From Cohnella sp. SGD-V74 (lineage in GTDB: Bacteria; Bacillota; Bacilli; Paenibacillales; Paenibacillaceae): DNA of 64,000 nucleotides. Of this stretch, positions 38,653 through 63,071 are shown in pieces; position 1 is the stretch's first letter; the number at the start of each line of letters is the position of its first letter. The notes under the pieces were generated by a model that was given only the letters and a program-made list of their open reading frames with translations, was not told the DNA's origin and did no database searches. The stretch lies in the NCBI RefSeq assembly GCF_003001675.1, contig NZ_PVYW01000002.1, forward strand, positions 496,001 to 560,000, given 5' to 3'. The position numbers and the translations under genes were made by a program.

Positions 38653-38655
38653 CTA

Positions 38656-38866
38656 AACTGCGGGTAAGCAGGCAAGTCGGTTCGGAGAGGAAGGCAAGTT
38701 GGCGAAAAAGCGAAACGTCGGGGCGTTGCTCGACGAGGGGGGAGGAATCGGAGAGTGAATGGTGCGGCGAATCGCAATAAGAGGCCGCCCCCTAGGGGAC
38801 GGCCTAGTAGAGCGCCCCCGAAGTAACGTAACCAAGATGTTGAAGAATCTAGGCTGACTCAGTCTT
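38656..38866. other. Intergenic stretch between pseudogene and tandem array
   Basis: No coding sequence is supported. The only structure seen is the near-perfect palindrome GGCCGCCCCCTAGGGGACGGCC at 38783-38804 (one mismatch pair). The minus-strand open frames here are non-repetitive in composition terms but lack family features and start sites. Confidence 0.5.
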
Positions 38867-39283
38867 GCTGAGTCGGGTTGGAGCGACGAAAGGGCCGGTA
38901 GAGTAGCTGGAACCGTGCTGAGTCGGGTTGGAGCGGCGAATGAGCTGGTAGAGTAGCTGCAAACGTGCTGAGTCGGGTTGGAGCGGCGAATGAACTGGTA
39001 GAGTAGCTGCAGCCGCGCTGAGTCGGGTTGGAGCGACGAAAGGGCCGGTAGAGTAGCTGCAACCGTGCTGAGTCGGGTTGGAGCGACGAAAGGGCCGGTA
39101 GAGTAGCTGCAACCGTGCTGAGTCGGGTTGGAGCGACAAAAGGGCCGGTAGAGTAGCTGCAACCGTGCTGAGTCGGGTTGGAGCGGCGAATGAGCTGGTA
39201 GAGTAGCTGCAACCGTGCTGAGTCGGGTTGGAGCATCGAATGGGACGTCAGAGTCGCTGCAACCGCGCTGAGTCGGGTTGGAG
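38867..39283. repeat. Tandem array of 50-bp units, eight and a third copies
   Basis: Units start at 38867, 38917, 38967, 39017, 39067, 39117, 39167 and 39217, with a 17-base partial unit at 39267. The consensus begins GCTGAGTCGGGTTGGAGCGA and ends GAGTAGCTGCAACCGT. Two variants alternate inside: GACGAAAGGGCCGG and GGCGAATGAGCTGG. Across each unit border GCTGCAACC can pair with GGTTGGAGC (one mismatch). The period is not a multiple of three, so the long minus-strand open frames here are artefacts of a unit without stops. Confidence 0.95.
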
Positions 39284-39355
39284 AGTAAGATTGCATCGGC
39301 TTCGAGCGCAATCGCATTTTACTTCTGGAATGCTCTACTAGCCATTCAGAGCTGT

Positions 39356-44322: not shown

Positions 44323-45012
44323 TTACGTACTTCCGGCAACCAGCATGTATCCTGTCCCCCGGATCGTAACGATTCTCTCTGGATGGGCAGGGTCAGCCTC
44401 GATTTTTTTGCGTAAATTGCTGATGTGCACAGCGACCGTTCTCGTATCCTCCAGACTCTCCGTTCCCCAGATGAGCTGAAACAACGCCTCGACACTGACG
44501 ACACGATTCACGTTTTGTGCCATATAGGAGAGCAGACCGAACTCTTTTTTCGATAAAAAGACGGTTTCACTTCCCATAATGACAGACTGTGCGTAGTAAT
44601 CCAGCATCAAACCCGGCAACTCCAGCAGTTGTTCCCTTCTGCCCGTCGACACTCTGCGAAGATGCGCCTTGATCTTGGCCATAAGCACCCCGGGACTGAA
44701 CGGCTTGGTCACATAATCGTCGCCGCCGTCGGATAATGCGCTAATTTTCACCTCGTCCTCCTCACGACTGCTCAGAAACACGATTGGCGCATTCGTGTAG
44801 CTGCGTGCGTTCCTGCACCAATCGATTCCGTTTTCATTCGCCAGCATGACATCCAGTACAATCAGATCCGGCTCGAACGACGCAAGCAGCTTCATGGCAT
44901 CTGCACCGCTATAACTATAGGAGGAGATAAAGCCCTCCCGCTCGCAATACGCCTGAACAATCTCGCAGATATGGGGATCATCATCGACGATCATAATTTT
45001 ATGCGCGTCCAT
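44323..45012 (-). CDS. OmpR/PhoB-type response regulator of the surface-protein cluster
   Basis: The 229 residues form a receiver domain (IMIVDDDPHICEI; Asp54 in LIVLDVMLANENG; KPFSPG) and a C-terminal winged helix (EFGLLSYMAQNVNRVVSVEALF, DTRTVAVHISNLRKKIEADP, IRGTGYMLV). The cognate kinase is probably the 7TMR-DISM protein at 45713-47848; a 12-codon copy of this gene's start directly behind the kinase gene suggests the two were once adjacent. Likely targets are the two promoters with the 7-4-7 box at 45641-45658 and 55310-55327. A lone half site CTTAAAG lies at 45056-45050 in its own leader. Confidence 0.93.
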   Translation of the reverse strand: MDAHKIMIVDDDPHICEIVQAYCEREGFISSYSYSGADAMKLLASFEPDLIVLDVMLANENGIDWCRNARSYTNAPIVFLSSREEDEVKISALSDGGDDYVTKPFSPGVLMAKIKAHLRRVSTGRREQLLELPGLMLDYYAQSVIMGSETVFLSKKEFGLLSYMAQNVNRVVSVEALFQLIWGTESLEDTRTVAVHISNLRKKIEADPAHPERIVTIRGTGYMLVAGST

Positions 45013-45147: not shown

Positions 45148-45549
45148 TTACTTCAGTGAGGCATACTTGCTCGACCGCATGAACTCACGGTGGGATTCCT
45201 GAATCGCATTTGTACGCATCAGTTGCTCCTCCGAACCACCATGTTTCAGTTGCCCCGCAATCTGCATCAGCTTGAACGTGTTGTAATAGTTCGCATCCGC
45301 TTTGCTGCGGCTATGCTGCAAGGCATCCTCATACGCTTGGCGTTCCAGTGAAAGGCTCATTGCTTGAGCATGCATATTGGGATCATGTCGCTGTAAGTAG
45401 TGCATTTCGTCGGAGCGCAGCTTCTTGCCCAGCATGAGTACATTTCGAATAGCTGTCAACCGCGATTGATCCTTCGTCTCGCGCGCGTCCTTGTATTGCT
45501 GCATCGCTTGGAAATAATCACTGACTGACTGCACAGATTTTACATTCAC
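45148..45549 (-). CDS. 133-residue helical protein of unknown function
   Basis: I do not recognise a named family. The protein is charged and almost wholly helical in appearance, with no signal peptide or membrane segment, and has three probable helices: DYFQAMQQYKDARETKDQSR, SLSLERQAYEDALQHSRSKA and the C-terminal NAIQESHREFMRSS. The GTG at 45549 is supported by AAGGGGGG nearby. The gene has a promoter whose 20-bp upstream element, spacing and leader length copy those of the giant surface-protein gene, and it sits between the kinase and regulator genes, so it belongs to that regulon. A role in signalling or secretion of the surface protein is possible but unproven. Confidence 0.75.
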   Translation of the reverse strand: MNVKSVQSVSDYFQAMQQYKDARETKDQSRLTAIRNVLMLGKKLRSDEMHYLQRHDPNMHAQAMSLSLERQAYEDALQHSRSKADANYYNTFKLMQIAGQLKHGGSEEQLMRTNAIQESHREFMRSSKYASLK

Positions 45550-45607: not shown

Positions 45608-45662
45608 ATTTTACCATTGCAGATTGCTCTATATAGGAAGCTTAAAGAAAACTTTAAGTTCG
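45608..45662 (-). promoter_or_regulatory. Activator box and promoter of the 133-residue gene
   Basis: On the minus strand CTTAAAG-TTTT-CTTTAAG (45658-45641) is a perfect 7-4-7 inverted repeat that also reads as an 11-bp-spaced direct repeat, typical of OmpR-type sites. After 27 bases comes the -10 TAAAAT (45613-45608), with no -35. The box ends 92 bases from the start codon. Twenty bases (45643-45662) are identical to 55312-55331. Confidence 0.75.
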
Positions 45663-45696
45663 CGTCTGCAACGATCATCATGTTGTGCGTGTCCAC
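45661..45696 (-). pseudogene. Second copy of the response regulator 5' end
   Basis: Directly behind the kinase stop, GTG and 11 codons read VDTHNMMIVADA, matching MDAHKIMIVDDD of the regulator at 45012. The leader also matches: AAGGTGACGTTGGG here, GAGGTGAGGTTGGG there. The frame then enters the activator box and ends at a TGA 28 codons later without receiver-domain sequence. It marks a duplication or insertion break point. Confidence 0.82.
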
Positions 45697-45712
45697 CCCA
45701 ACGTCACCTTCC

Positions 45713-47848
45713 TCATTTCCCCACGCAAGGAAACGATACATAGAAGACCGACCCCGTCTTGCCGTCGCTCTCCGCTCGAACCGTTCCTCCATGCGCTTGC
45801 ACGATTTCCCTGCAAATCGCCAGCCCGAGCCCGCTGCCCTCTACGCCTTTCTCGCCCGGTTGATCATACCTGTAATTGCGATCGAAGATTTGCTCAAGCT
45901 GCTCCGGCGGAATCCCCATGCCTGAGTCTTGCACGCTAATGATCGCATAGCGGGTACGATTCACCTCATCCACAACCAGCCCAAGACGCACCGCACCGCC
46001 CCTTGGGGTAAACTTCATGGCGTTCGACACCAGATTAAACAACGCTTGCTCCAGTCGTTGCGCATCCATCACGACAACAGGCGAATCAGACCCTTGATCT
46101 GCCTCATCTCTGCAATCGAGTCTGAAATCCAGACCAGCGTCACGCACAACCAGCTCATATTGTTCATAGAACCGGCGCAAGAAGTGAATCACATGAACCG
46201 GCTCCATGCGATACGAGACCTGTCCCGTCTCCAAATGCGACAAGAAGCTCAGCTCCTCGATCATGCGGTTAATCCTTATCGTGTTATCCCGAATATATTT
46301 CAGGTACTGATCATTGCGTTCCGGTTTGACTCTGTCCTGCACAGCTTCTACATAACCCAGCATGCTGGACAGCGGCATGCGCAGATCATGCGTAATATAG
46401 GCAAGGAGCTTCTTCCGCCCTTCCTCGGATTGAAGCAGCTGGTCATACGATAAGCGGAGATCGTCATGAGCTGCGGACAAGGCCTGTGTGCGTTCCTGCA
46501 CGGTCCGTTCCAGATTCGTATTCATCTCGATAAGCTTGTCGTTAGCGACCAGCAACTCGCGCGCAATCTTCTCCTCGTTCGCCGCCGCCCTCGTAAATCT
46601 CGAAGAAAGCAGCATCATCTGTGCGATTGTAAACACCAACAGACCCAGCGGAGAGGTATTTCCGATTCGCGACCATTCGTTGTAATATAAAAAGTCGTTG
46701 ATAACCGTCACTAAAGCAACCACCGACACCAGCAGGAAGATCAGCGCTCCCTCCCTACGCCGCACAGCCGCTTGGGCCAGTCCAACCATCAGATAAACCA
46801 TATGCAGGACAACGATCACACCGATCATTGGCAACATTTGGGTATAGATAATGGCAGGGGTCGCCACAACAACAATACACAATGCTCCGGTTACGAACCG
46901 CGTGCCATGATGGAACCAACGCGACACATAATTCGGAAAGATGCAATTGAAGTACATCGTGATGATATACCCGCTGCTGCACAGAATCAGGTACTCGATC
47001 TTGAACTGCAATTCCCACGGAAAAGTCGGCCACCATTGGGTGAGCAATAGCTCGCCGACCAGCAACGAGCGGATGCCGAACATTAGGGTGAACAGCCCAA
47101 AGAACAAGGGCGCCCTGTCTTTGCGTCGCAAGGCGAACAACAGCAGGTGATAGACCCCAATGACCAGCAGGCTTGCGGTGATGAACATTTCAGCGGCGAT
47201 GTTCAGATGGGTTTTGACCGTTAATACATCACTTCCGCCCAACTCGATATACTGGGTGATGCCGCCTCGCTTATGATGGAAGTTGGCAACTTGCATCACC
47301 AGTTCCACCGAACCTTGCTCGGGCTGGAAGAACACAAGCTTCGTTGCCAGACGCGGGATCGCTCTGCTCTTGTCCCGACCAACCACACCAACCTCTTCCA
47401 GAAGCTCGCCGTTAACCCACAATTTATACGCATGAAAAATCGCAGGCAGCCGCAGCGCAAGCCGCTCGCTGCGATCCTGCTCGCTAAGTTCGATGACGAC
47501 CCGAAAGGTGGCATAACCTGTACCGCTCAGCCGCTGGCCATCTAACCGATCGCCTAGCCAAGAGTTCGGGATGCTGATCCAGCGTTCATGATTGCCGCCC
47601 CTTGCCATGCGATTCTGTATATCCTCGGGCGACAGCAGCTCTTGCCAGTAGAACGCCCACTCCCCCGCTAACTTTAGCGGATTCTCGCGGACATGAACCT
47701 GGGTTAAATCCAGAATGCCTTCTTTGCTTTCGAGCTTGGGGGAGTCCGGTGCAGGCATGACGGCATAGCTTGCAACCAAACCGACAACAACGGCAGCAGT
47801 GATATAAAGCAAGATCATACGAGAACCGAAGCGGAGAATACCCCTCAT
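45713..47848 (-). CDS. 7TMR-DISM sensor histidine kinase
   Basis: The 711 residues start with a membrane anchor, an extracellular jelly-roll domain (about 50-200: GEWAFYWQELLSPEDIQ, LALRLPAIFHAYKLWVNGEL), which in 7TMR-DISM receptors probably binds carbohydrate, then seven membrane helices (about 215-415), a short coiled coil, a HisKA domain with the phospho-acceptor His in LAYITHDLRMPLSSML, and an HATPase domain (NLVSNAMKFTP, DSGMGIPPEQ, GSGLGLAICREI). It probably signals to the OmpR-type regulator at 44323-45012. A weak half copy of the activator box is upstream (47913-47919), suggesting autoregulation. Confidence 0.93.
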   Translation of the reverse strand: MRGILRFGSRMILLYITAAVVVGLVASYAVMPAPDSPKLESKEGILDLTQVHVRENPLKLAGEWAFYWQELLSPEDIQNRMARGGNHERWISIPNSWLGDRLDGQRLSGTGYATFRVVIELSEQDRSERLALRLPAIFHAYKLWVNGELLEEVGVVGRDKSRAIPRLATKLVFFQPEQGSVELVMQVANFHHKRGGITQYIELGGSDVLTVKTHLNIAAEMFITASLLVIGVYHLLLFALRRKDRAPLFFGLFTLMFGIRSLLVGELLLTQWWPTFPWELQFKIEYLILCSSGYIITMYFNCIFPNYVSRWFHHGTRFVTGALCIVVVATPAIIYTQMLPMIGVIVVLHMVYLMVGLAQAAVRRREGALIFLLVSVVALVTVINDFLYYNEWSRIGNTSPLGLLVFTIAQMMLLSSRFTRAAANEEKIARELLVANDKLIEMNTNLERTVQERTQALSAAHDDLRLSYDQLLQSEEGRKKLLAYITHDLRMPLSSMLGYVEAVQDRVKPERNDQYLKYIRDNTIRINRMIEELSFLSHLETGQVSYRMEPVHVIHFLRRFYEQYELVVRDAGLDFRLDCRDEADQGSDSPVVVMDAQRLEQALFNLVSNAMKFTPRGGAVRLGLVVDEVNRTRYAIISVQDSGMGIPPEQLEQIFDRNYRYDQPGEKGVEGSGLGLAICREIVQAHGGTVRAESDGKTGSVFYVSFPCVGK

Positions 47849-47972
47849 GATGAAGCCGACCCCAATCTACAGGATGCGCGATATATAAGTTAATTCTCCT
47901 AATGATAACATCATTAAAGAAAATTGTGCCCTGCAAATCTGTTCGGGGCGTTGAACATGCCGGGCTAACAGC

Positions 47973-48006
47973 AGAGCAGCCAACTCCGGTGGGAGTAGGC
48001 TGCTCT
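47973..48006 (-). terminator. Hairpin behind the giant surface-protein gene
   Basis: AGAGCAGCC and GGCTGCTCT pair perfectly, and inside them ACTCC and GGAGT pair around GGTG; only one A-A pair interrupts the stem. It lies 21 bases past the stop. No T-run follows, so its termination strength is unclear. Confidence 0.65.
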
Positions 48007-48027
48007 AATATGTGCTACGAGAGACGG

Positions 48028-51000
48028 TTACTTGCCGGAATCATGCTTCATCACCGTCAAGTTAACTGGAATACCCAGAGGCACGTTATCCACATAGAAC
48101 ACATACACGCTGTCGCGGCTGTCTATCGTCATCCCGGTTTGATAAGCTGCTGTTTCGGTGAAGTTGGCGTTACCTACAAGCGTCCAACTGCCGCCCTCGT
48201 ATTTCATCACGGTCGCCTTGTTCCCGTATCCGTAAACGACATAAGGCGTGCCAGTGCTATCGAAAGCAAGGTTTGAATCGGTTTTCCAGTTATTTCCTGT
48301 CGCAATCATACCGATCGTGTCCCAGTTGTTGGAGCCAACATTATACCTGATCACGCTCATTGTTGAATTATTCCTGTAGACGATATACGGCACATCATTC
48401 GGATCAAGCGCAAACGAGAGAGCTTGATGATTAAGCTCACCCAGGTTGCTAACAGTCACCCAAGCGCCATTCTCGTATTTAGAAACAGTTGCGTCCCCGT
48501 ACATGACTTCTTGGTATAAATACAGGATGTTGCCTTTGCTAAACTTGATGATTGGAGGCAGCCAACCGCTTACGAGACTCTCGCCGCCAGCTACATCGAC
48601 CCAATTCGTGCCGTTATATTTGACCACTCTGATGCGTTCTGGTGATCCATCGCCATGCACATAAGCGAGATAAGGAACATTATCTCCGTCGAAGGCAAGA
48701 GACGGGTTATTCGTGAAGCTTTGGAGTGCGTTAGCGCCTACGTTTGCCCAGGTTTCCGTGCTAGCGTCATATTTAAGTACGGCTAGCTCAGAAATGCCTC
48801 GATGCCTATAAACAATGTAAGGAACATCCTCGTTGTCCAAGGCAAACTCCAATTGGTTCCGCTCCCCCGCGAAGGAGCCGATATTGATCCACGCACCTCC
48901 ATCATACTTCATCACGTATACAGTGCCATCTAGCGCACCCGCAACATAAGGCGTACCGCGACTGTCGAGCGCAGACTTAAATTCGAAAACTTGACCGACC
49001 GTATCCCCTACATTTTGCCACAGGGACAGCGTCCACTTCGCGTACAGTGTGAGGTCTTCCGTCACCGCTGTATTGAAGTCGTAGACTGGCATACCCTCGT
49101 TGAGATCCACGTACCAGCCGTCGAATCTGTAGCCCCTCCACGTCGGATCGCTCGGCACCGCAGCCTTGTTTCCAGGACTCACTGTCTGGCTGTTCACGAC
49201 TGAGCCGCCGTTGCTGTCGAAGCTCACCGTGTAGCTGTTCTCCGTCCACTTCGCGTACAATGTGATGTTCCCCGCTACAGGTGTCGTGAAGCTGTAGGCT
49301 TCACTCAGACTGCTGTCGCTGTACCAGCCGCCGAACGCATGCCCCGAACGGATCGGGTTGGCAGGCGCCGCAGCCGCAGTCCCTTCATTCACCGTCTGAG
49401 CGTCCACTGCCGAACCGCCGTTACTCTCAAAGCTCACAGTGTAGGTAGCGATCCACTTCGCATACAGCGTGACATTCCCCGTTACCGGGGTCGTGAAGCT
49501 ATAAGCTTGACTATGTCCCGCATCGCGGTACCAGCCGCTGAACGCATGCCCGGAACGAGTCGGATCGGCAGGCTTCGCAGCCGTGTCCCCGTAATCTACC
49601 GACTGGCTGCTCACCAGCGACCCTCCATCGCTAGTGAAGCTCACCGTGTAACTGTTCTTCGTCCACTTCGCGTACAGCGTAAGATCCCCTGTCACGCCTG
49701 CTGTAAAACCGTAAGGACTTGTCCAGCCACTATCGCTGTACCAGCCTCCGAACGTATGTCCCAATAGCGTCGGAGCGGGCGGTGCCGTAGCTACAGCCCC
49801 TTCGTTCACCGTCTGGTCCTCCACGGTCGAGCCGCCATTGCTCTCGAAGCTTACCGTGTAGGTTGTTTTCTGATCCATCGTCCACTTCGCATACAGCTCG
49901 AGATTACCCGTCACCACCTCTGTGGTGAAGTCGTAGACGGTCGTGAAGGTTTCATCGCGATACCAACCGCTGAACACATGGTCTTCCAGCGTAGGAGCGA
50001 CAGGCGCTACCGCTTTGGCACCGTCATTCACCTGCTGATCCGCTACCGGCGATCCGCCCTTGCTGTCGAAGCTCACCGTGTAGCTGCGCAGCCACTGCGC
50101 ATACAACGTGAAGTCGCCCGTCACCTGTGTCGCGAAGTCGTAGACGCTCGTCAGTGCGCCATCGCTGTACCAGCCTCCGAACACCCAATCGTTCTTGGTC
50201 GGTTCAGTCGGTTCTTCTGCCTGGAAGCCATAACCGACCGTCTGGGCGTTCACCGCCGAGCCGCCGTTGCTGTCGAAGCTCACCGTGTACTCATTAAGCG
50301 TCCACTGTGCGGTGAACTGGACATCCTCCGCCGGCATCGTAGCGGGTGGAGTCGGCAACCAGCCTGCGAAGGCATACCCCTGCCGTGTCGGAGTACCGAG
50401 AGAGATCGTGGCGCCAAGCGGAACCTCAATGACCTTGGTCGCCACACCGGAACCGTTGTAATCGACCGTCATCGTGTGCGCATCGCGCGTGTAGTACACC
50501 TTCAGAACCGTTGTGCCGTCGCCTGCGATCGTGCGCGCAAGCACTGTGCCGGGAACTTCGTCGTCGAACCTGAAGCCCGGATAAGACTTCATCGTAACAT
50601 TCGTCAGATTCGCCTCAGCGCCGGTAATCCCGTAATAAGATTCCGTATCCGCCACCGTGTAGGTGTCGCTTGCGATATTTTGCTTCAAGTACACGACTTT
50701 ATAAGGCGTATTCGCACGCGCAGTCCACGTTGCGGTATAGGTCGTGTCGGAAGTCGGCATGAGGCTCGGCGCCTCCGGCGACCACCCGGCGAACGTATAG
50801 CCCGGTCTTGTCGGCACAGGAATACGCGCGGCAATATTTTTACCGAACAGTGCCGTGATCGACGCTGCAGGAGCACCCGCATAATTCAGGTTGAACGTCA
50901 TGGTTCGATTCGTGGGATAATAATCCACACGCACTACCGCCGAACCGTCGCCCTTGATGGTCGAACCGCTTGACGTCCCGTTCGCATAGCCTTGATCCTT

Positions 51001-54000
51001 GAAGCGATCCGAGTCTATCAGAATCTCTGTATCCGTTGTTCCGGTCAATACTTCCGTATACGCAGACGAAGTTGCGGATCTGCTGTTCGGTTCTATTAAA
51101 TAATGCTCCACGGTATACGGCGTATTCGTGTTCGCCGTCCAATGCGCGTACAGATGAAGATCCGCCGCTGGCATTTGACCTGGAATCGTCGTTATCGCGC
51201 CATCGACAGCCTCCGTATACCAGCCGTCAAAGGTGTAGCCCGGATATACCGGGGTCGCCGCGCTAATCGCCGTGTTAGGCGCGCCAACGATAACCTCCGT
51301 CACTCCGCCATTCTGCGGGTCCAACTGCAGGACATATTCCCCTGCCCTGATGCGCCATGTCACCGGAATCGTACGCTTGAGCGGTTCAGATCCGAACGAC
51401 AGTGGAGCCCCCTTCCACGTAATGACCAGGTTCCCCTTGCTCAGCGGGCTGTTCGTATTCAGCACCTCAATTTTGCGGGTTGCCGGGTCATACTTGAAAT
51501 TCGCATGATCCACCTGAATATCGAACCGCGAAGCGTCATAGGTCTGAGTATCGGTGCCGCCTGTCTTCAGATCAAACATGCTCATCTCGAACAGCATCTT
51601 CGGCACAGTGAGAGATGACGCAGAGCCTGCCAAGTTCAGCTCAGGCGCCTCATCCTGCGGATAGGCAAAGTCTGTAACATTCCGCTGCTCCCCTACCGTG
51701 TACAACGGCCATGTATTCTCGTATACCGGTATACTGCCCGAGAGCAAGCCATCGCCCAATTGAGCGCCGATTGCAGTCTCTAGATAGATACCGATCTCTA
51801 CATACAGAGCGCCCATGGATCGGGTAGTCTGCTCCCCGTTCAGTCGCTTCAACTGATAATAGAAGTACCCCCACAGATTCACGTACGCACCGGCTTCAAT
51901 AGACACCCCGATGCTATTCAGCTTAACACTGCCAACCCCCGCTTTAAGCTCCAGCAGAACTCCCGCCCGCAAGCCGATTGTCCCCATTACATAGAAGGTA
52001 AACTGGTAATTGCCGTCACCCGGCAAGCTTACGGTGTTGCTCGTGCCTCGGAAACCAAGCACGTGCACGGTAGCCGAGTAGCGTTTGGCTGTCGTATAGT
52101 TGAAATCCGCGCCGATCGTCAAGTTCACATTGGCGCTGACAACAAACTCGGCTGTAAAGTTGACTTCAACGATACCCATAACTACGCGCACGCTCTTCTC
52201 GAAGAGCTTCTTTTTGATCAACGGAACCCAATCCGTCTCGTTCTCCATCATCTCTTGATACTGTGCTTTCAACGATTCCGCATCTACGCCGGTATCCTGC
52301 ACGCCGTCGATTAACGCTTTAATCTCTGTCGCAATATCGCGTACGTTGCTTAGTACGCCGCCATTATGCGCGCCATCCCAATCCCCCAGCGCCTCCTGCA
52401 GCTTATCGTGCGCCACCGTGGCAATCTCCGCCGTAATATTAATTCCGGTATACGTGTACGCATCCAGATTGGCGGTAATCCGATAATCTTTCGGGTAAGG
52501 CACACAGAGAATCCAAACACACGCCTTCCCCCAATCCGTCCCCCCATCGATGCCGAGATTCAAAGTAATCTCCTGTAAGAACGTACCCGTCATATGGATG
52601 ACGAGATCGCTCTCCTCATGGATGCGAATGACAATGTCCGCGCCGATCTGAAGCGTAGCGCTGACTCCGGAGGATTGTCCGGCAATATGATTTACTCTCG
52701 TGCCCAACGCAGCGACAACCGTCAGATTCTCCACACTGACTTTGCCTGCGCCGTTAGCCGCTAGCATCTTCACTTCCATCTGCGTCTTGAAGGCATCCGT
52801 CTCCATGGCCAGCGCAGACAGATAGTCCGCAGCCTGATCGACGAAGCCGCTGGCGATCGCTTGCTGCTCTATCTGATCCTCGAGCTGCGCAATCTCCTCA
52901 TCCGACAGCAGTTCCTCACCCTCAATCGCGCGCTGCTGATAGATGTCGAAGGCATGATCAATGTCTGCTTCCGTGACGTCGACATACGTAATAATATCCA
53001 TCTCCGCCACAGGCGTAATCGACGTAATGCGTCCATAACCGATTAACAGTTGGGAGCCGCCATTCACTAACTCACCCTCATAGAAAGCGATAAAATCGCC
53101 TACATCGACGGTGGTGAGCTCGCTCAAGCCTAGTGCCGCATACATGCTGTCGCTGTAGTTCATGACCGTATGCGGAACCGTAATCGAATGATTATTCGGG
53201 TCTTCATCCGTATCCGCATCTACACTCACAGGCAGAACATCCGGCCTGAACAACACTTGCTCGGCATCTGCGTGAACATAGGTGTAGCTACTGCCGCTAA
53301 TCGCTGTGATTCGCACATAAGCGACAGCGCCGTCGGCGGCGCCGGTTGTGTCTACCGTTCGCAGATCGGGACGAACCCCTTCGTAGATTGCAACGACAGC
53401 GCCAACTTGAATCTCGCTGCTTCCGCTGTAGGAGAAAGTTCCACTGCCGCCATTCGCGGCGGCAAGACCGTTCTCGCTGTCACCTACCGTCGTCGTAATG
53501 AGCGGAATGGCCGGCGAACCTACTTCCGCGCCATCGAGCATCATATTCGTGACATGTGCGAAAGGCAGATAGATCATATTTGGATTTAGCGGGACATTCA
53601 TGACTTCTTCCTTGGCAACGCTAAAAACATAGATGCTCGTCGTCGCGTCTTGACCTTGGAAAGACAGATTGTCATCCGTTAACGTCAATTGATAGGTGTG
53701 TCCTTCTGTGAACCGACCGCCTTCGGCCGCTAACGTGAAGAGACCATTCGCGCCGGTGACGGTAATCCCCGTAAAATCAGGATCTGAGGTATCCTCGAAC
53801 GTCATACGCGCCTGCACCCCGGACGCCGTCAGGCTGCCCGTCGCATCTTCTATATCGATGGTGAAGCTCGGAGCGACATCCAGCACCGAGTAGATCGGAG
53901 TGCTCTGTACGGCATTACTCACATGATCGATATACTTCGCATACAACTGCGTATTGTCAGTAACCGTACTGCTTTCCGTGAAAATAAGCGACAAACCGCT

Positions 54001-55218
54001 GTCTCTGAACCACCCTTGGAAAATATATCCCTCTTTCGCCGGAGCTGGCAGGTGGCTTAACGTCTCCCCTTCCTGCACCGTCTGCGCAGCTACCGCCGAC
54101 CCTCCATTACTGTCGAAGCTCACCGTATAGTTGGCAATCCACTTCGCGTACAACGTCATATTACCCGTTACCACCTCTGCGAAGTCGTACGGCAGGGTCA
54201 GATCGGTGTCGCTGTACCAGCCGCCGAACGGATACCCTGATCTTGTCGGCACTTCAGGCAGAACAGCCACCGAGCCTTCCTGCACCGTCTGCGCAGCTAC
54301 CGCCGACCCGCCGTTGCTCTCGAACGTAAGCGTATACGTAGGGACATTGGGGTTGCCGCCTGTGTTTCCTCCGGTCGTTCCGCCGCCACCGCCGCCAGCT
54401 CCGGGCGTCGGCAGCCCTGCGCCGTTCGTCGTGCCATTATCCGTATCGGATGTTGGCGTCGGCGTCTCTTGATTCTGATTTTTCCACGCCTCCACAATCG
54501 CGTTGTTGCGCATGAAGAAAACAGCCGCTTCTGCACGAGTCGCCTGTTTATGTGGATTGAAATTGCCATTGCTGTCCCCGTCGAACAAACCCGCTTGCCA
54601 CAGCTTCACAACTGCATCCGTCGCCCAGGAAGACACGTTTGCAACATCACCCGGCTTCGTAGTTACAAGGTTGCTAGTTTGATAGGGAATCTGATAGCTT
54701 TCAAAGTATCGCAAAGTCAGCGTCGCCATCTGTTCCCGGGATACGGTTGCATCGGGAGAAAAGTTCCGGACGCCCGTGCCGGAAGTAATCCCCTTCTTAA
54801 CCGCCCACTCTACATATGGCGCATACCAAATGCCCGCCGGCACGTCGGCAAAGCTCGAGGCGGAATACTCGCCGACATCCACGCCGGCCATTCGTCCAAG
54901 CGCCGTCACATACATGGCGCGCGTCATCGTTCCCTTAGGGGAGAAGGCGCCCCCGCCCGTTCCGCCGAATATACCATTCTTCCGGACATAGACGGCCGCA
55001 TCGTAGAACCAGTCCGTTGGTCTCACATCCTGGAATCCGCTTGATTCGGCCGCCGCCACCTGTTGCACCGACAGCTCGGGCACTATCGCCTGCTGTACCG
55101 GCAATTCGGCCGCCGACGCCTGCTGCACCGGCAGTGCGGTCACGATCATGCTGACGATCAGCATCCACGCCAAAATTCGTGATGTTAACTTCCATTCCCG
55201 TTTTGTTGTCTTCTTCAC
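48028..55218 (-). CDS. Giant SLH-anchored surface protein with InlB-type repeats
   Basis: The 2396 residues begin with a signal peptide (cut near Ala36), then three decapeptide repeats (LPVQQASAAE, LPVQQAIVPE, LSVQQVAAAE), three S-layer homology domains (about 61-105, 120-165, 188-235; ITSGTGVRNFSPDATVSREQ), a Gly/Pro linker, two InlB B-repeats (YTLTFESNGGSAV...GWYSDTDL), a unique region of about 900 residues, nine more B-repeats broken by two MucBP-like modules, and a C-terminal beta-propeller-like part with repeats such as VPYIVYRNNS and VMKYEGGSW. The SLH domains should bind pyruvylated wall polymers, leaving the repeats as a stalk for adhesion or polysaccharide binding. GTG 55218 follows AGAAGGGA. 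Confidence 0.93.
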   Translation of the reverse strand: MKKTTKREWKLTSRILAWMLIVSMIVTALPVQQASAAELPVQQAIVPELSVQQVAAAESSGFQDVRPTDWFYDAAVYVRKNGIFGGTGGGAFSPKGTMTRAMYVTALGRMAGVDVGEYSASSFADVPAGIWYAPYVEWAVKKGITSGTGVRNFSPDATVSREQMATLTLRYFESYQIPYQTSNLVTTKPGDVANVSSWATDAVVKLWQAGLFDGDSNGNFNPHKQATRAEAAVFFMRNNAIVEAWKNQNQETPTPTSDTDNGTTNGAGLPTPGAGGGGGGTTGGNTGGNPNVPTYTLTFESNGGSAVAAQTVQEGSVAVLPEVPTRSGYPFGGWYSDTDLTLPYDFAEVVTGNMTLYAKWIANYTVSFDSNGGSAVAAQTVQEGETLSHLPAPAKEGYIFQGWFRDSGLSLIFTESSTVTDNTQLYAKYIDHVSNAVQSTPIYSVLDVAPSFTIDIEDATGSLTASGVQARMTFEDTSDPDFTGITVTGANGLFTLAAEGGRFTEGHTYQLTLTDDNLSFQGQDATTSIYVFSVAKEEVMNVPLNPNMIYLPFAHVTNMMLDGAEVGSPAIPLITTTVGDSENGLAAANGGSGTFSYSGSSEIQVGAVVAIYEGVRPDLRTVDTTGAADGAVAYVRITAISGSSYTYVHADAEQVLFRPDVLPVSVDADTDEDPNNHSITVPHTVMNYSDSMYAALGLSELTTVDVGDFIAFYEGELVNGGSQLLIGYGRITSITPVAEMDIITYVDVTEADIDHAFDIYQQRAIEGEELLSDEEIAQLEDQIEQQAIASGFVDQAADYLSALAMETDAFKTQMEVKMLAANGAGKVSVENLTVVAALGTRVNHIAGQSSGVSATLQIGADIVIRIHEESDLVIHMTGTFLQEITLNLGIDGGTDWGKACVWILCVPYPKDYRITANLDAYTYTGINITAEIATVAHDKLQEALGDWDGAHNGGVLSNVRDIATEIKALIDGVQDTGVDAESLKAQYQEMMENETDWVPLIKKKLFEKSVRVVMGIVEVNFTAEFVVSANVNLTIGADFNYTTAKRYSATVHVLGFRGTSNTVSLPGDGNYQFTFYVMGTIGLRAGVLLELKAGVGSVKLNSIGVSIEAGAYVNLWGYFYYQLKRLNGEQTTRSMGALYVEIGIYLETAIGAQLGDGLLSGSIPVYENTWPLYTVGEQRNVTDFAYPQDEAPELNLAGSASSLTVPKMLFEMSMFDLKTGGTDTQTYDASRFDIQVDHANFKYDPATRKIEVLNTNSPLSKGNLVITWKGAPLSFGSEPLKRTIPVTWRIRAGEYVLQLDPQNGGVTEVIVGAPNTAISAATPVYPGYTFDGWYTEAVDGAITTIPGQMPAADLHLYAHWTANTNTPYTVEHYLIEPNSRSATSSAYTEVLTGTTDTEILIDSDRFKDQGYANGTSSGSTIKGDGSAVVRVDYYPTNRTMTFNLNYAGAPAASITALFGKNIAARIPVPTRPGYTFAGWSPEAPSLMPTSDTTYTATWTARANTPYKVVYLKQNIASDTYTVADTESYYGITGAEANLTNVTMKSYPGFRFDDEVPGTVLARTIAGDGTTVLKVYYTRDAHTMTVDYNGSGVATKVIEVPLGATISLGTPTRQGYAFAGWLPTPPATMPAEDVQFTAQWTLNEYTVSFDSNGGSAVNAQTVGYGFQAEEPTEPTKNDWVFGGWYSDGALTSVYDFATQVTGDFTLYAQWLRSYTVSFDSKGGSPVADQQVNDGAKAVAPVAPTLEDHVFSGWYRDETFTTVYDFTTEVVTGNLELYAKWTMDQKTTYTVSFESNGGSTVEDQTVNEGAVATAPPAPTLLGHTFGGWYSDSGWTSPYGFTAGVTGDLTLYAKWTKNSYTVSFTSDGGSLVSSQSVDYGDTAAKPADPTRSGHAFSGWYRDAGHSQAYSFTTPVTGNVTLYAKWIATYTVSFESNGGSAVDAQTVNEGTAAAAPANPIRSGHAFGGWYSDSSLSEAYSFTTPVAGNITLYAKWTENSYTVSFDSNGGSVVNSQTVSPGNKAAVPSDPTWRGYRFDGWYVDLNEGMPVYDFNTAVTEDLTLYAKWTLSLWQNVGDTVGQVFEFKSALDSRGTPYVAGALDGTVYVMKYDGGAWINIGSFAGERNQLEFALDNEDVPYIVYRHRGISELAVLKYDASTETWANVGANALQSFTNNPSLAFDGDNVPYLAYVHGDGSPERIRVVKYNGTNWVDVAGGESLVSGWLPPIIKFSKGNILYLYQEVMYGDATVSKYENGAWVTVSNLGELNHQALSFALDPNDVPYIVYRNNSTMSVIRYNVGSNNWDTIGMIATGNNWKTDSNLAFDSTGTPYVVYGYGNKATVMKYEGGSWTLVGNANFTETAAYQTGMTIDSRDSVYVFYVDNVPLGIPVNLTVMKHDSGK

Positions 55219-55277
55219 ACCCGCTCATCCCTTCTCGTAACCTGCCCACAGGAAAATGATGTCGATTTTCTCCTCTC

Positions 55278-55331
55278 ATTCTAGCAAGCAGGCGGGATCG
55301 CTTGTGAATTGTAAAGAAAACTTTAAGTTCG
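55278..55331 (-). promoter_or_regulatory. Activator box and promoter of the giant surface-protein gene
   Basis: On the minus strand CTTAAAG-TTTT-CTTTACA (55327-55310) is followed after 26 bases by the -10 TAGAAT (55283-55278), again without a -35. The box ends 92 bases before the start codon, exactly as at the 133-residue gene. The rest of 55219-55518 holds only a GC hairpin (CCCGCC/GGCGGG near 55385-55402) and the leader of the next gene. Confidence 0.75.
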
Positions 55332-58071: not shown

Positions 58072-59109
58072 TCATACAATCTCGGCTGTGTCGACCGGCA
58101 GGAAAAGCGAGAACACACTCCCCCGGCCCGGCTCCGAAGATACCTTCACGTAACCGCCCTGCTCCGCCAAAATTTTACGCGCCAAGTACAGGCCGACGCC
58201 GACGCCCGGCGTATCGGACGAGGAGGCCCCCCGGAAAAACCGCTGGAACACCTTGGCAAGCTCGGCTTCGGGAATGCCGCGTCCGTTGTCGGCGACGTCG
58301 ATTCGGGCGAACATCTCGTACCGTTCGACGGTCACCTTGATGCTGCCGCCAGCGGGGGTATATTTGATCGCGTTGTCCAGCACGTTGCCGATCGCCTCGC
58401 CCGTCCACTTCGCGTCATGAAGCAGTTGAACGGACCGACTCCCCTCCAACGCGATCTCCAGTTCCTTCTCTTCCGCCGAAGGATAAGCCGTCTTGATCGC
58501 CGCCAGCACCGTATCGGCAACGTTCCCCCTCTCCGCGCGAATCTCGATGATTCCGCTCTCCAGCCGGGAGATTTTCACCAGACTGTCCATAAGCCACGTC
58601 AGCTTCTCCGTCTGATCCCGCATAATTCGGGCAAACTCCGTTCTTTTGTCCGGAGGCAGCGATTCGTCCGCCAGCAGCCCGTTATACATATTCAGATTGG
58701 CGAGCGGCGTCCGAAGCTGGTGGGTAATGTCCGTAATGAGCGATTTCATCTCCTCGCCCTCTTCCTTGTACCGAAGCTTCTGCATCCTTAAAATGCCCGA
58801 CAGCTTCAGCACCTGATCCTGCAGCTTGGAGAGCAGATTGTCCTCGGAGACGGGGAATTGCTGCTTGTCCTGCCCGTCGATCAGCGACTGCACGGTCAGC
58901 GACAGCTTGTCCAGAATCTCTATCATCCTCGAGCGCAGCGACAGCAAGTAGCCCGCGAAAATAGCAGCCGTCGCCAGGACGAATGCCGCCGCCCCCCACC
59001 AAATCTCCTTGTCCGCCCGAGAGCAGGCGAGAACGGCAAAAAACGCGCCGCAAGCGAGCGCGTACAATGCCGAACATACGATAATGATGCGGACAAAGGA
59101 GCTTCTCAT
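58072..59109 (-). CDS. Sensor histidine kinase of the ABC exporter module
   Basis: The 345-residue protein has two membrane helices (about 7-30 and 37-58) with almost no extracellular loop, then HisKA with the phospho-acceptor His in ITDITHQLRTPLANLN and HATPase (LDNAIKYTPAGG, DNGRGIPEAE, GVGVGLYLARKI). Kinases without an outer sensor domain commonly sense through a partner ABC permease, and such a permease is encoded two genes upstream. Its start lies 3 bases behind the regulator stop. Confidence 0.92.
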   Translation of the reverse strand: MRSSFVRIIIVCSALYALACGAFFAVLACSRADKEIWWGAAAFVLATAAIFAGYLLSLRSRMIEILDKLSLTVQSLIDGQDKQQFPVSEDNLLSKLQDQVLKLSGILRMQKLRYKEEGEEMKSLITDITHQLRTPLANLNMYNGLLADESLPPDKRTEFARIMRDQTEKLTWLMDSLVKISRLESGIIEIRAERGNVADTVLAAIKTAYPSAEEKELEIALEGSRSVQLLHDAKWTGEAIGNVLDNAIKYTPAGGSIKVTVERYEMFARIDVADNGRGIPEAELAKVFQRFFRGASSSDTPGVGVGLYLARKILAEQGGYVKVSSEPGRGSVFSLFLPVDTAEIV

Positions 59110-59112
59110 CGT

Positions 59113-59790
59113 CTAGTCTCCCCAGGTATAGCCGATTCCGAACACGGTTTTGACGAAGCGCGGCCGCTTCGGATCGTTCTCGATTTTGCTTCGCAATCTC
59201 TTGATCGTCACGCTGAGCGTATTCTCGTCCACGAAGTTGCCCCCCGCGTCCCACAGCTTCTCCAGAAGAACGTCCCGCGTCAGCACCTGGTTGCGGTTCT
59301 GGGTCAGCGCAGCAAGCAGCTTGAATTCGTTCGTCGTCAGCTTGAGCTCTTGGCCGCTCTTGAACACTTTCATTTTATCATAATGAATCGTCAATTCTTG
59401 GTATGCGAACAGCGCTCCATGGTCTCCGCTCCCGCCTCTGCGAAGCACGGCCTTCACCCTCTCGCGGAGCACGGCCATGCTGAACGGCTTGGCCATGTAA
59501 TCGTCCGCTCCGAGCTTAAAGCCGAGCACCATGTCCTTCTCGGTATCGTTGGCCGTCAGAAAAACGATCGGAATGTCCGAGGTGGCGCGGACGGCCGAGC
59601 ACAGCTCCTTTCCCGGGCGATCGGGGAGGTTGACGTCGAGCAGGATCAGGTGAATTTCGCGGCTGCGGAAAGCAGCCAGCCCTTCCTCGCAGGAGTAAGC
59701 CGATACGATCTCATAGTGGTCCGCCCCGAGCGCGTACGCCAACCCTTCGTTTAGAGGACGATCGTCTTCCACGATCAAGATCGTCGCCAT
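59113..59790 (-). CDS. OmpR-type response regulator of the ABC exporter module
   Basis: The 225 residues comprise a receiver domain (ILIVEDDRPLNEG; Asp52 in LILLDVNLPDRPG; KPFSMA) and a winged helix (EFKLLAALTQNRNQVLTRDV, TLSVTIKRLRSKIENDP, VKTVFGIGYTWGD). ATG 59790 is used rather than ATG 59802 because GGAG is well spaced from it. It is coupled to its kinase and follows the exporter genes, whose expression it probably controls. Confidence 0.93.
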   Translation of the reverse strand: MATILIVEDDRPLNEGLAYALGADHYEIVSAYSCEEGLAAFRSREIHLILLDVNLPDRPGKELCSAVRATSDIPIVFLTANDTEKDMVLGFKLGADDYMAKPFSMAVLRERVKAVLRRGGSGDHGALFAYQELTIHYDKMKVFKSGQELKLTTNEFKLLAALTQNRNQVLTRDVLLEKLWDAGGNFVDENTLSVTIKRLRSKIENDPKRPRFVKTVFGIGYTWGD

Positions 59791-59901
59791 TCGAATCTCC
59801 ATCCTTCCTTGCGGAGCCCTCTCGGAACCGGGGCAGCGTTTAGTCCCTCTTCGTCGAGCCGTTGCGTTGGACCTCTTCGTTCAACCGTTGCACTTCTTCG
59901 C

Positions 59902-62397
59902 TCAGCCTGCTTCCCGCAGCCGTTCGACGATGCTCTTCTTTCCGACTCTGTGAAAAGCAACGAACGGAACGATCCAGCAAGAAGCAAGGATCAGCGCGAA
60001 AGCGACCGCCAGCGGCACCGCCGGGAACGTATAAATCGCGTAATCCGCTTCCTGGCTGAACAGGGCGTACGCGCCGTAGCTGATCAGCGTGCCGAGCGTG
60101 GACACGAGCAGAAGAGAGATCGCCGCGTACCCCGTCCCTTCCCATAATAACAGGTTGCGCAGCTGCTTGCGCGTCATGCCGATGCTTTCCATCACCGCGA
60201 ACTCCTTCTTGCGGACGACAACGCTCGTGAGCATCGTACTGACGAAGTTCAGTATGCCGATCAAAGCCAGAATAAGCGTAACGGCGCCTCCGAGGATGTA
60301 GAAAACGACTTTGGCGGATTCAAGCTGCTCCGCCCAATCCAGCTTGGAAGAAAGCTTCAGCTCGCGGGAATCGGCAACCAGCGATTCGAGCCTCTCCTGA
60401 ATTTGCGGATGCCGATTCTCATCGGCTTGTATGGCCAGTCGGTAGGCTATCGGCTCCTGTCCGAGCCACTGCCTCATCGCCTGCTCGCTTACGTATACGT
60501 TCGGAGCGAAGCTGCCGAAAGGAATTCCGTAAGTGTGCGGAACTTCCCCTCCTACCTCGAAATCCCATTCGGCGGAGCCGCCGGGCAGCCCCAGCATAAT
60601 GCTTGCTCCCCGCTCCACGTTCGGCGTGTTCAGAAGAGCGATCTCGCCCTTCTCGAATCGCTCGAGGTCGATCGGCGTCTCCAGTTCCTCATTCAGCTTT
60701 TCTATATCCCGGGTATCCAGCCCGACCGCGAAGCCCGCAAATCCTTCCCGGTTCACGGACAACTCCTCGTCGGACGGCCGCTCGAAGCCGCTCTGCTCGG
60801 CGAAGGCATCCATATATTTGCCGAACACGTCGGCGGAATAAGGCATGTACGCTCTCTGCACGTAAGTCGCCCGAATGTCCTCAACCCCGTCGATCTGCCG
60901 GATTTGCTCAATCAGACTGTTCGTGAGCAGCGGCTTCGGTTCGCCCTCGTACCTGAAGCCGAACGTTTCGTTCTCGACTTCGAAGTCGTTGCCGACATAA
61001 GTGTCGACGAAATTGTCGGCATCCATGCTGAGCACAAGCGTGTTCGCGGTCAGGAACGTCGTCATCCCCAGGAACAGCGACAGGAACACGGTCGCTGCCC
61101 GCTTCTTGTCGCGGAACAGATTGCGCAGCGCCATGCGGTGGAGCTTGGCGCCGCCCCGTCCCCGTTTTCGCTTCCGGGAGGCTTGCTCATATTTCGAGGC
61201 TTCGATCGGCGATATCCGCCCGGCGATCTTCGCGGGCTTCCGGCTGCCGGCCATCGTCGTCAGCCAGGCGAACAACGCCGCTCCGACGAATATGACCGGG
61301 TGGAACGAGATTTCCGCATCCGTCTCGAGCGAAGTGATTCGAAGCGCGAGCGGCACGGCGACGAAGGACGTAACCGCGCCCGCGGCGAGCCCGAGCGGTA
61401 CGCCGACCAGCGCCAGGCGATTGGCCTGGCCGCGAACAAGCCGCTTGATCTGCCTCCGGGTGGCGCCGATCGTCTTCAATAAGCCGTATTGCTTCGTATC
61501 CGTAGAGACGGATACGTAAAGAACGTTATAGACGAGCAAGTAGCCGCTGAACATGACGAGGGCGACCATTCCCCCCATCCCCGCGTATGTCCGGGCCCGG
61601 TCCGCGGGATCGCCGACCGTCCTTTGCACCGGATCGAACGGCTGCTTGCCGCTCAGACCCAATTGTTCCTCCGCTCGCTGCATCGAAGCTCCGACGTCTT
61701 TTCCGCTCTTGAACGAGACGGAAGCGACCGTCCCTGCCCCGGGCTCGGTTCCTCCCCGAATGTCGTCGGCGAAAGCCTTCGAGACGACGATCGTCCCGGC
61801 GCGTCCCGCCAAATGCGAATAGTCGGTATACCATCCGCTCAGGACAAAGGACTCCGTGCGTTCGACCAGTCCCTCTCCGCCTGTCGGTCGCGCGGAGTAA
61901 GTCAAGGAAACGGTCATCCCCGCCTGCGGCTTTTCGATGCCCAACTCGTCCAAAATCCAGGTCGGCACGATCGCTTCGTTCCGGCCGTCCGGATATTCGT
62001 TCGCGCTCTTGCCCCAGAGCGGCGCTCTCATCTTGCGCCATTCAACGTCATCGTACCATGCGAAGGAGGCAGCCAGCCCATCGTCCGCCACCGGGGGAAC
62101 CCAACGTGCGACTTGTACCTCCAGACCGACCTCGCTCACGTCCGCCATGCCCTGCAGACGCGTCACTTGCTCCGCCGTCGGATTCGCCAATCTCGCATCC
62201 GCAGTCGTTCCTTGCATTTTTTGCGCTTGCGCTTCGAACGATTGCACGTAGCTCAGACCGATGCTGAACACGGACGTAATCAGCCAAGCCGTCAAGGCAA
62301 TCGCCAGCACGACGTAGCGGTTTCTGGAACGGTTCGCCTTCAGGCTCCGCTTCATCAGCTTGTCTATCGCGGCTTTGTTGGCGTTCGGGAACATCAT
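59902..62397 (-). CDS. FtsX-type ABC exporter permease
   Basis: The 831-residue protein has about ten membrane segments arranged as two FtsX units, each with a long outer loop (first helix about 28-50; LQGMADVSEVGLEVQVARWV in the first loop; FVSTMLTSVVVRKKEFAVME before the last helices). Such permeases act with a MacB/LolD-type ATPase in export, signalling or resistance to antimicrobial peptides. Its start overlaps the ATPase stop as ATGA. The neighbouring two-component system suggests a peptide-sensing resistance module. Confidence 0.92.
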   Translation of the reverse strand: MMFPNANKAAIDKLMKRSLKANRSRNRYVVLAIALTAWLITSVFSIGLSYVQSFEAQAQKMQGTTADARLANPTAEQVTRLQGMADVSEVGLEVQVARWVPPVADDGLAASFAWYDDVEWRKMRAPLWGKSANEYPDGRNEAIVPTWILDELGIEKPQAGMTVSLTYSARPTGGEGLVERTESFVLSGWYTDYSHLAGRAGTIVVSKAFADDIRGGTEPGAGTVASVSFKSGKDVGASMQRAEEQLGLSGKQPFDPVQRTVGDPADRARTYAGMGGMVALVMFSGYLLVYNVLYVSVSTDTKQYGLLKTIGATRRQIKRLVRGQANRLALVGVPLGLAAGAVTSFVAVPLALRITSLETDAEISFHPVIFVGAALFAWLTTMAGSRKPAKIAGRISPIEASKYEQASRKRKRGRGGAKLHRMALRNLFRDKKRAATVFLSLFLGMTTFLTANTLVLSMDADNFVDTYVGNDFEVENETFGFRYEGEPKPLLTNSLIEQIRQIDGVEDIRATYVQRAYMPYSADVFGKYMDAFAEQSGFERPSDEELSVNREGFAGFAVGLDTRDIEKLNEELETPIDLERFEKGEIALLNTPNVERGASIMLGLPGGSAEWDFEVGGEVPHTYGIPFGSFAPNVYVSEQAMRQWLGQEPIAYRLAIQADENRHPQIQERLESLVADSRELKLSSKLDWAEQLESAKVVFYILGGAVTLILALIGILNFVSTMLTSVVVRKKEFAVMESIGMTRKQLRNLLLWEGTGYAAISLLLVSTLGTLISYGAYALFSQEADYAIYTFPAVPLAVAFALILASCWIVPFVAFHRVGKKSIVERLREAG

Positions 62398-63071
62398 GGC
62401 CGCATCCCTCCGACGATCTTGCCGTCCCCGATACGGACGACGGCGTCGGCCAACTGCGCGATCTCTTCGCTGTGGGTGATCATGACGATCGTCTGGTTGA
62501 ACTGACGGCTCGTCACTTTCAGCAGCCCGATTACTTCCTGGCTCGTGCGGCTGTCCAGATTCCCCGTAGGCTCGTCCGCCAAAATGATCGCAGGCTTCGC
62601 AGCCAGCGCGCGGGCGATGGCGACCCGCTGCTGCTGTCCGCCGGACAGCTCGCCGGGCAAGCTATTCAGCTTCTGCGCGAGTCCCAGCGTCCGAACGACA
62701 TGTTCCACGAACTCCCTGTCGATCGCGTTCCCATCCAGCTCGATTGGCAGCACGATATTTTCGTAGACGTTCAGGATCGGCACGAGATTGTACTGCTGGA
62801 ACACGAAACCGATTTTGCGCCTGCGGAATACGGTCAGTTCGTCGTCGTTCATCTCGAACAGCGATTTGCCTCCGATGAACACTTGCCCTCCGGTCGGTCG
62901 GTCCAACCCTCCGAGCATGTGCAGAAGCGTCGACTTCCCGCTGCCCGAGCTGCCGACGATGGCGACGAATTGTCCCTCCCGCACCTCCATCGTAACGCCG
63001 TCGAGCGCTTTGACGAGATTCGGCTCCCGTCCGTATATTTTCGTTAAGTCTACCGTTCTCAACAAGGTCAT
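62394..63071 (-). CDS. ABC exporter ATPase, MacB/LolD type
   Basis: The 225-residue ATPase has Walker A GSSGSGKST (40-48), the Q-loop FVFQQYNLVP, the signature LSGGQQQRVAIARAL and Walker B IILADEPTGNLDS followed by the H-loop ITHSEE. It powers the FtsX-type permease encoded just downstream with a 4-base overlap. It is first in the four-gene module ATPase, permease, regulator, kinase. Confidence 0.95.
   Translation of the reverse strand: MTLLRTVDLTKIYGREPNLVKALDGVTMEVREGQFVAIVGSSGSGKSTLLHMLGGLDRPTGGQVFIGGKSLFEMNDDELTVFRRRKIGFVFQQYNLVPILNVYENIVLPIELDGNAIDREFVEHVVRTLGLAQKLNSLPGELSGGQQQRVAIARALAAKPAIILADEPTGNLDSRTSQEVIGLLKVTSRQFNQTIVMITHSEEIAQLADAVVRIGDGKIVGGMRP

Follow-up and report, generated by a model that had tools for sequence, protein, structure and literature searches.

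What could lead a giant surface protein and a small conserved protein of 133 residues, encoded in the same gene cluster, to be preceded by the same 20 bases? The question is raised by a stretch of 64,000 nucleotides from Cohnella sp. SGD-V74 (the window, contig NZ_PVYW01000002.1), in which an identical element, the box, lies upstream of the gene for a giant SLH surface protein and again upstream of the gene for p133, as the smaller protein is called here. The answer favored, with a probability of roughly 86%, is that the box is the operator of the two-component system encoded beside it and that the response regulator (RR) of that system acts as an activator of extended −10 promoters. What was computed is the box itself, the fixed geometry of its promoters, the fact that it is conserved ahead of surface genes both orthologous and unrelated, and an almost perfect match between its occurrence and that of the RR. 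The box is real and conserved and, on this comparative evidence, very likely functional.

The proposed mechanism would run as follows. A sensor kinase with a seven-transmembrane (7TM) domain would phosphorylate the OmpR/PhoB-type RR. A dimer of the RR would occupy the box, at about −57 to −36, where a −35 element would otherwise lie, and would bring in RNA polymerase; the promoters themselves have no −35 and depend on an extended −10 (TGnTAAAAT). In this genome, one boxed promoter would serve the giant SLH gene and the other p133. The p133 promoter probably also drives the RR gene, which lies 135 bases beyond p133, and this would create positive feedback.

The boxes and their promoter geometry

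The boxes and the −10 elements that follow them in the window are these.

45643..45662, minus strand: box 1, CGAACTTAAAGTTTTCTTTA (then AGCTTC), upstream of p133
45608..45616, minus strand: extended −10 of the p133 promoter, TGGTAAAAT (TGG-TAAAAT), hexamer 30 bases past CTTT
55312..55331, minus strand: box 2, CGAACTTAAAGTTTTCTTTA (then CAATTC), upstream of the giant SLH gene
55278..55286, minus strand: extended −10 of the SLH promoter, TGCTAGAAT (TGC-TAGAAT), hexamer 29 bases past CTTT

The 20-base identity between the two copies, which a preliminary description of this DNA had pointed out, is confirmed, and both lie on the minus strand like their genes. Across the genome (8.24 Mb), the 16-base core CTTAAAGTTTTCTTTA occurs exactly twice, at the two boxes only, and base composition predicts 0.0009 exact copies. 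Allowing one mismatch adds a single site, and the reversed pattern has none. That further site, on contig 15 (L003), has CATT in place of CTTT, lies just before the start of a frame on the opposite strand, and is taken as a chance match. A search of the whole genome for the core with its upstream GAA and the conserved TTC, at up to three mismatches, returns the same two sites only; within the window, a scan at up to three mismatches gives 2 matches with 0.16 expected, and 4 of 100 shuffles contained two or more.

Might the two boxes be chance matches, or DNA copied by a recent duplication or as a dispersed repeat, with no regulatory role? Twenty identical bases at two places speak for it, but beyond the box the upstream sequences of the p133 and SLH genes match at just 32 of their remaining 93 positions. 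The box is also conserved in different genera, ahead of genes unrelated to each other, and tracks the RR. This explanation is almost certainly wrong.

The layout first described needs some adjustment. Both boxes were said to end 92 bases before a GTG start; a recount from the end of CTTTA gives 93 in each case. The spacings of 27 and 26 bases to the −10 hold when counted from the end of a full 7-4-7 repeat and become 30 (p133) and 29 (SLH) when counted from CTTT. The 7-4-7 inverted repeat itself is complete in the p133 copy; the SLH copy ends in CTTTACA. As for the missing −35, a scan finds no sigma-70 −35/−10 pair at the p133 promoter, and at the SLH promoter, judged by eye only, none is apparent. 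A feature absent from the earlier account is that both −10s are extended, with TG at the extended −10 position, and that of p133 fits the relaxed promoter pattern with 0 mismatches. Equal leader length fails as a property of the system: p133 leaders range from 68 to 166 bases and those of SLH giants from 94 to several hundred. The leader measures 154 to 166 bases in 14 of 21 relatives with an intact boxed p133, that of the window (94) being about 67 bases shorter, and by this comparison the equal leaders of the two window genes are a coincidence.

How rigid is the arrangement elsewhere? The box was surveyed in 394 genomes of the same bacterial family, Paenibacillaceae, whose members are mostly soil bacteria, with an 18-base pattern defining the strict box. 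Forty regions, selected by the author, were fetched around part of the 97 strict sites found, and 100 boxes were collected over the window and the fetched loci. Among the 78 boxes outside intact p133, TGnTAnnnT stands exactly 30 bases past CTTT in 67 and at 29 in 4, with 5 matches in total at all other distances from 10 to 47; the extended −10 was no part of the box search pattern. With the −10 hexamer placed at −12 to −7, the box covers about −57 to −36, and in boxes outside p133 the conserved letters extend beyond the palindrome to TTC. An activator site at a fixed distance from the −10, with no −35, is the arrangement of a class II activated promoter. The site may be read either as a 7-4-7 palindrome or as an 11-bp direct repeat. 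OmpR/PhoB proteins commonly use 11-bp direct-repeat operators, and of the offsets from 8 to 14, a direct repeat at 11 scores best here (0.64; column-shuffle P = 0.005), read as CTTAAAGTTTT/CTTTAAGTTTC.

The same geometry bears on two other ways of reading the box. Could the RR bind it as a repressor, at a site that reaches the −35 region and blocks polymerase until a signal lifts the RR? The site does end at about −36, adjoining the −35 region, but the promoters have no recognizable −35, and the near-fixed 30-base spacing to an extended −10 suits activation and would be needless for a repressor site; repression is considered unlikely. The box could also be the −35 of an alternative sigma factor of the extracytoplasmic function (ECF) type, with GAACTT followed, after about 17 bases, by a −10 around TTTCAT. 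GAAC-type −35s are typical of ECF sigma factors, and CGAA and TTC are both conserved at a fixed spacing. Such a promoter would nevertheless leave unexplained the extended −10 thirty bases on, found at 67 of 78 sites, and the partner that co-occurs with the box is a response regulator. An ECF promoter is thought very improbable.

Regulator and box across the family

Which genes does the box precede? For p133, a box lies upstream of 25 of 31 copies, window included, 23 of them with the exact core and 2 with one mismatch. The six boxless copies comprise three directly after an RR gene (L065, L067, and L068), one from a genome lacking a close RR (L071, G301), one disrupted (L078b), and one truncated at the end of a contig (L037). 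The window and the fetched loci, 78 sequences together, hold 15 orthologues of the SLH giant, and a same-strand box lies upstream of all 14 whose start is visible, window included. The distance is up to about 400 bases in 12 of these and about 700 in two (L139 and L141), and 9 of the 14 loci were fetched independently of the box.

Over all 100 boxes, a frame of at least 100 residues starts within 450 bases downstream in 85, the downstream gene being picked automatically as the longest frame starting within that distance. These targets cluster into 23 p133 entries (one gene shared by two boxes), 21 in a cluster joined by SLH proteins, 7 RR genes, 4 response regulators with a BTAD domain (RR-BTAD), 4 SLH-clostripain proteins, and smaller groups. 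The author picked 18 of the 85 downstream proteins for a Pfam search, which found SLH domains in 12; the other six comprise one FliD-like, one RR-BTAD, one HD-domain, and one invasin-like protein and two that matched nothing. SLH proteins are plentiful in the window genome: among the first 150 scored matches, separated by contig and frame length, there are at least about 72 SLH reading frames. Since the genome has two boxes in all, the switch would select only a small subset of them.

What reads the box? The candidate is encoded in the cluster itself, whose order on the minus strand, 5′ to 3′, is giant SLH gene, kinase, p133, RR.

48028..55218, minus strand: giant SLH surface protein, 2,396 residues, with 3 SLH and 11 List_Bact_rpt stretches
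45713..47848, minus strand: sensor kinase, 711 residues, putative partner of the RR, with 7TMR-DISM_7TM, HisKA, and HATPase_c domains
45148..45549, minus strand: p133, conserved 133-residue protein with a GTG start
44323..45012, minus strand: RR, OmpR/PhoB-type response regulator with Response_reg and Trans_reg_C domains, candidate box-binding activator

The domain assignments are clear, with Pfam scores of 82.6 bits for Response_reg (cut-off, 30.2) and 88.5 bits for Trans_reg_C (26.2) in the RR and, in the kinase, 79.7 bits for 7TMR-DISM_7TM (29), 53.3 for HisKA (26.9), and 92 for HATPase_c (26.4). The solved structures nearest to the RR are MtrA and RegX3.

Box and RR travel together. With a close RR orthologue defined by an E value of at most 1e−70, 84 of the 394 genomes carry one. 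The strict box occurs in 58 (97 sites, compared with 7 for the reversed pattern); 54 genomes have both, 4 the box only, and 30 the RR only (Fisher's exact test, P of about 1e−39). The association holds at P < 0.05 within six of nine tabulated genera (g1, g2, g4, g8, g15, and g16); it is not significant in g9, g10, and g17, where the genomes having both features or either one numbered 0 to 3. Among the four genomes with a strict box and no close RR, one (G017) has RR pieces at contig ends (L064). The strict matches in the other three (G253, G254, and G359) are without a −10 and look like chance; strict boxes were checked for a −10 in fetched loci only.

The 30 genomes with an RR and no strict box are accounted for as well. 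A relaxed version of the full promoter, with up to three mismatches, is present in 26 of them and in 0 of 30 RR-less genomes, which the author chose from 306 (18 from the window's genus and 12 from g16). The last four (G016, G380, G386, and G388) have, no more than about 4 kb from the RR, a box with 1 to 3 mismatches to the 18-mer followed at the correct spacing by an extended −10, a combination that no shuffle contained. At one of three stringencies, then, the box is found in 84 of 84 RR-bearing genomes, and the small surface regulon that had been proposed is both supported and enlarged. The assignment of the box to the neighboring OmpR-type regulator likewise gains support from co-occurrence, from proximity (an RR is found no more than 15 kb away from 53 of the 97 strict sites, in 37 of the 58 genomes), and from the RR gene being itself a boxed target in 7 fetched cases. 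A control gave a different picture: for another OmpR-type regulator of the window (59113-59802), at the same cut-off, 7 of 25 genomes have a strict box, which is not significant (P = 0.07).

Beyond the family, an even class-level draw of 338 genomes was examined, in which the relaxed pattern occurs in all 10 family genomes that are RR-positive, in 2 of the 20 that are RR-negative, and in 1 of 308 genomes from outside. That single outside match (L188, in G521) has an RR (89% identical) and a kinase (82%) 3 to 6 kb from the box, and it looks like a transfer of the whole kinase-RR-box module. In four neighborhoods the RR is present twice (L195 in G386, L117 in G032, L121 in G280, and L060 in G006); the duplicated copies can each have a box of their own nearby, and in G386 a box follows each of the two.

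A companion of the kinase-RR pair could in principle be the true reader of the box, and an RR-BTAD protein is one such candidate, its genes being boxed in 4 fetched cases (with domains checked in one). Of 70 fetched loci, however, just 5 have relatives of at least 50% identity, and two of these 5 overlap; the loci are stretches of 4 to 20 kb, and no family-wide search was made. The p133 protein is excluded as a general reader, since it is present in only 28 of 394 genomes. That some such factor reads the box is about as improbable as the ECF promoter.

Several points weigh against activation by the RR. Co-occurrence is unable to separate the RR from another factor that always accompanies the kinase-RR pair, and binding, phosphorylation, activation rather than repression, and read-through are all inferred. 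The two RR-negative family genomes that matched the relaxed pattern in the class-level draw (G194 and G050) show a box-like promoter but no close RR, 44 of the 97 strict sites have no RR within 15 kb on the same contig, and 15 of the 100 boxes have no frame of at least 100 residues starting within 450 bases. Homology is common among the boxed genes, which keeps the 78 sites from being independent of one another. In score, the palindrome (P = 0.0002) equals or exceeds the direct repeat, in a core whose letters the search pattern fixed. Finally, a second conserved stretch at about −30 to −16 (approximately TGG.C.AATCTACCA) is explained by neither the activator nor the −10. Even so, the near-perfect co-occurrence of box and RR across the family makes the RR very likely the activator.

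Relation to known systems

Class II promoter sites are used by OmpR/PhoB-family regulators such as PhoB, PhoP, MtrA, and KdpE. The system described here shares with them the receiver and winged-helix domains, an operator reaching the −35 region, and possibly the 11-bp direct repeat. It is set apart by RR scores far below the NCBIfam equivalog cut-offs (181.7 against 296.2 for PhoB, 193.4 against 300 for MtrA, and 179.6 against 340 for WalR, also called YycF), by the extended −10 at a fixed spacing, and by its SLH surface targets. The mechanism is of a known kind. Among the titles and abstract openings listed, a literature search found no published description of the regulon or the box, most subscription journals lying outside its coverage, and a search with the box motif strings found no paper.

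Two proteins of the same bacterial family are among the closest known cases. SlhA of Paenibacillus alvei is also an SLH surface protein, and its loss abolishes swarming and reduces biofilm formation; slhA has its own promoter, and the accessible part of the report names no regulator for it (PMC3776848). CmoA of Paenibacillus sp. NAIST15-1 is a large extracellular protein that takes part in surface motility and is encoded in a flagellar operon. It differs in having vWFA and IPT/TIG domains, with no SLH domain and no such box described in the part of that report available (PMC5072692).

Why does the box matter? An SLH surface protein is important for swarming and biofilm formation in this family, as the accessible portion of the SlhA study indicates (PMC3776848), and no account was found of what selects among the at least roughly 72 SLH frames. 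A fixed operator tied to one kinase-RR pair offers a regulon that can be tested directly in 84 genomes and predicts sharply which surface genes should respond. The boxed regulon is also a first handle on conserved proteins without known function, such as p133.

Feedback, p133, and neighboring features

How might the system control itself? A weak half copy of the box before the kinase gene had been put forward as a sign of feedback.

47898..47919, minus strand: the half copy with the letters that follow it, CTTTAATGATGTTATCATTAGG, likely the kinase's own core promoter

The letters are present at 47913-47919, but their CTTT lies 8 bases from a −10-like hexamer, not 30, and the geometry of the box is absent. 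Among 13 regions upstream of kinase genes, that of the window included, GATGnTATnAT is found in all 13 and CTTTAATGATG in 5; the four relatives with CTTTAATGATG read CCTTTA, which breaks the box's TTTTCTTT, and the half copy was rejected as an activator box. It is likely part of a kinase promoter with another geometry. In three of the 13 (L062, L067, and L068), a true box belonging to a divergent gene falls within the kinase upstream region, and there the box may control the kinase.

A loop that passes through the RR gene has better support. This gene shares its strand with p133 and begins 135 bases past it. No terminator-like site was found in the gap, although the gap can form a hairpin that lacks a T run, and a weak promoter-like match (9 of 12) coincides in part with the start of the RR gene. 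Transcription from the p133 promoter may plausibly continue into the RR gene. A structured RNA leader was not found, an Rfam search of the window giving 0 matches at the gathering score.

What is p133 itself? Homologues occur in 28 of the 394 genomes, with two weak matches, and 25 aligned relatives are 69 to 86% identical. The window protein belongs to no Pfam or NCBIfam family; its relatives give scattered weak Pfam matches (best E value, 0.00044, in 1 of 26 members). A PDB comparison gave two weak matches (E values of 0.18 and 0.65). A clue comes from its neighbor: in 14 of 30 p133-bearing loci searched, a gene for a FliD-like protein, or a piece of one, follows p133. It is nearly full length in nine, where a 416-residue gene lies directly after p133 (L059, L060, L063, L064, L065, L070, L071, L037, and L046), and partial in five (L066, L069, L074, L036, and L038). 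Pfam confirmed FliD domains in one of these proteins. The window genome has no close copy, only a 43% identical relative elsewhere. The pairing suggests that p133 may be partnered with a flagellar-cap-like protein.

One broad speculation, thought doubtful, is that all this amounts to a transferable, family-wide switch for surface remodeling. It would consist of the rigid operator, the 7TM kinase-RR pair (sometimes duplicated with the box), a changing set of giant SLH adhesins, and the p133/FliD-like pair, in which p133 would help the FliD-like protein; the cell surface would be reprogrammed on contact with a surface or polysaccharide.

Two further features of the window can be mentioned. The control regulator belongs to a second two-component system (58072-63071; kinase at 58072-59109, regulator at 59113-59802), which adjoins genes resembling an ABC transporter permease and ATPase. 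At 38653-39317, overlapping frames with a repeated peptide indicate a tandem DNA repeat array.

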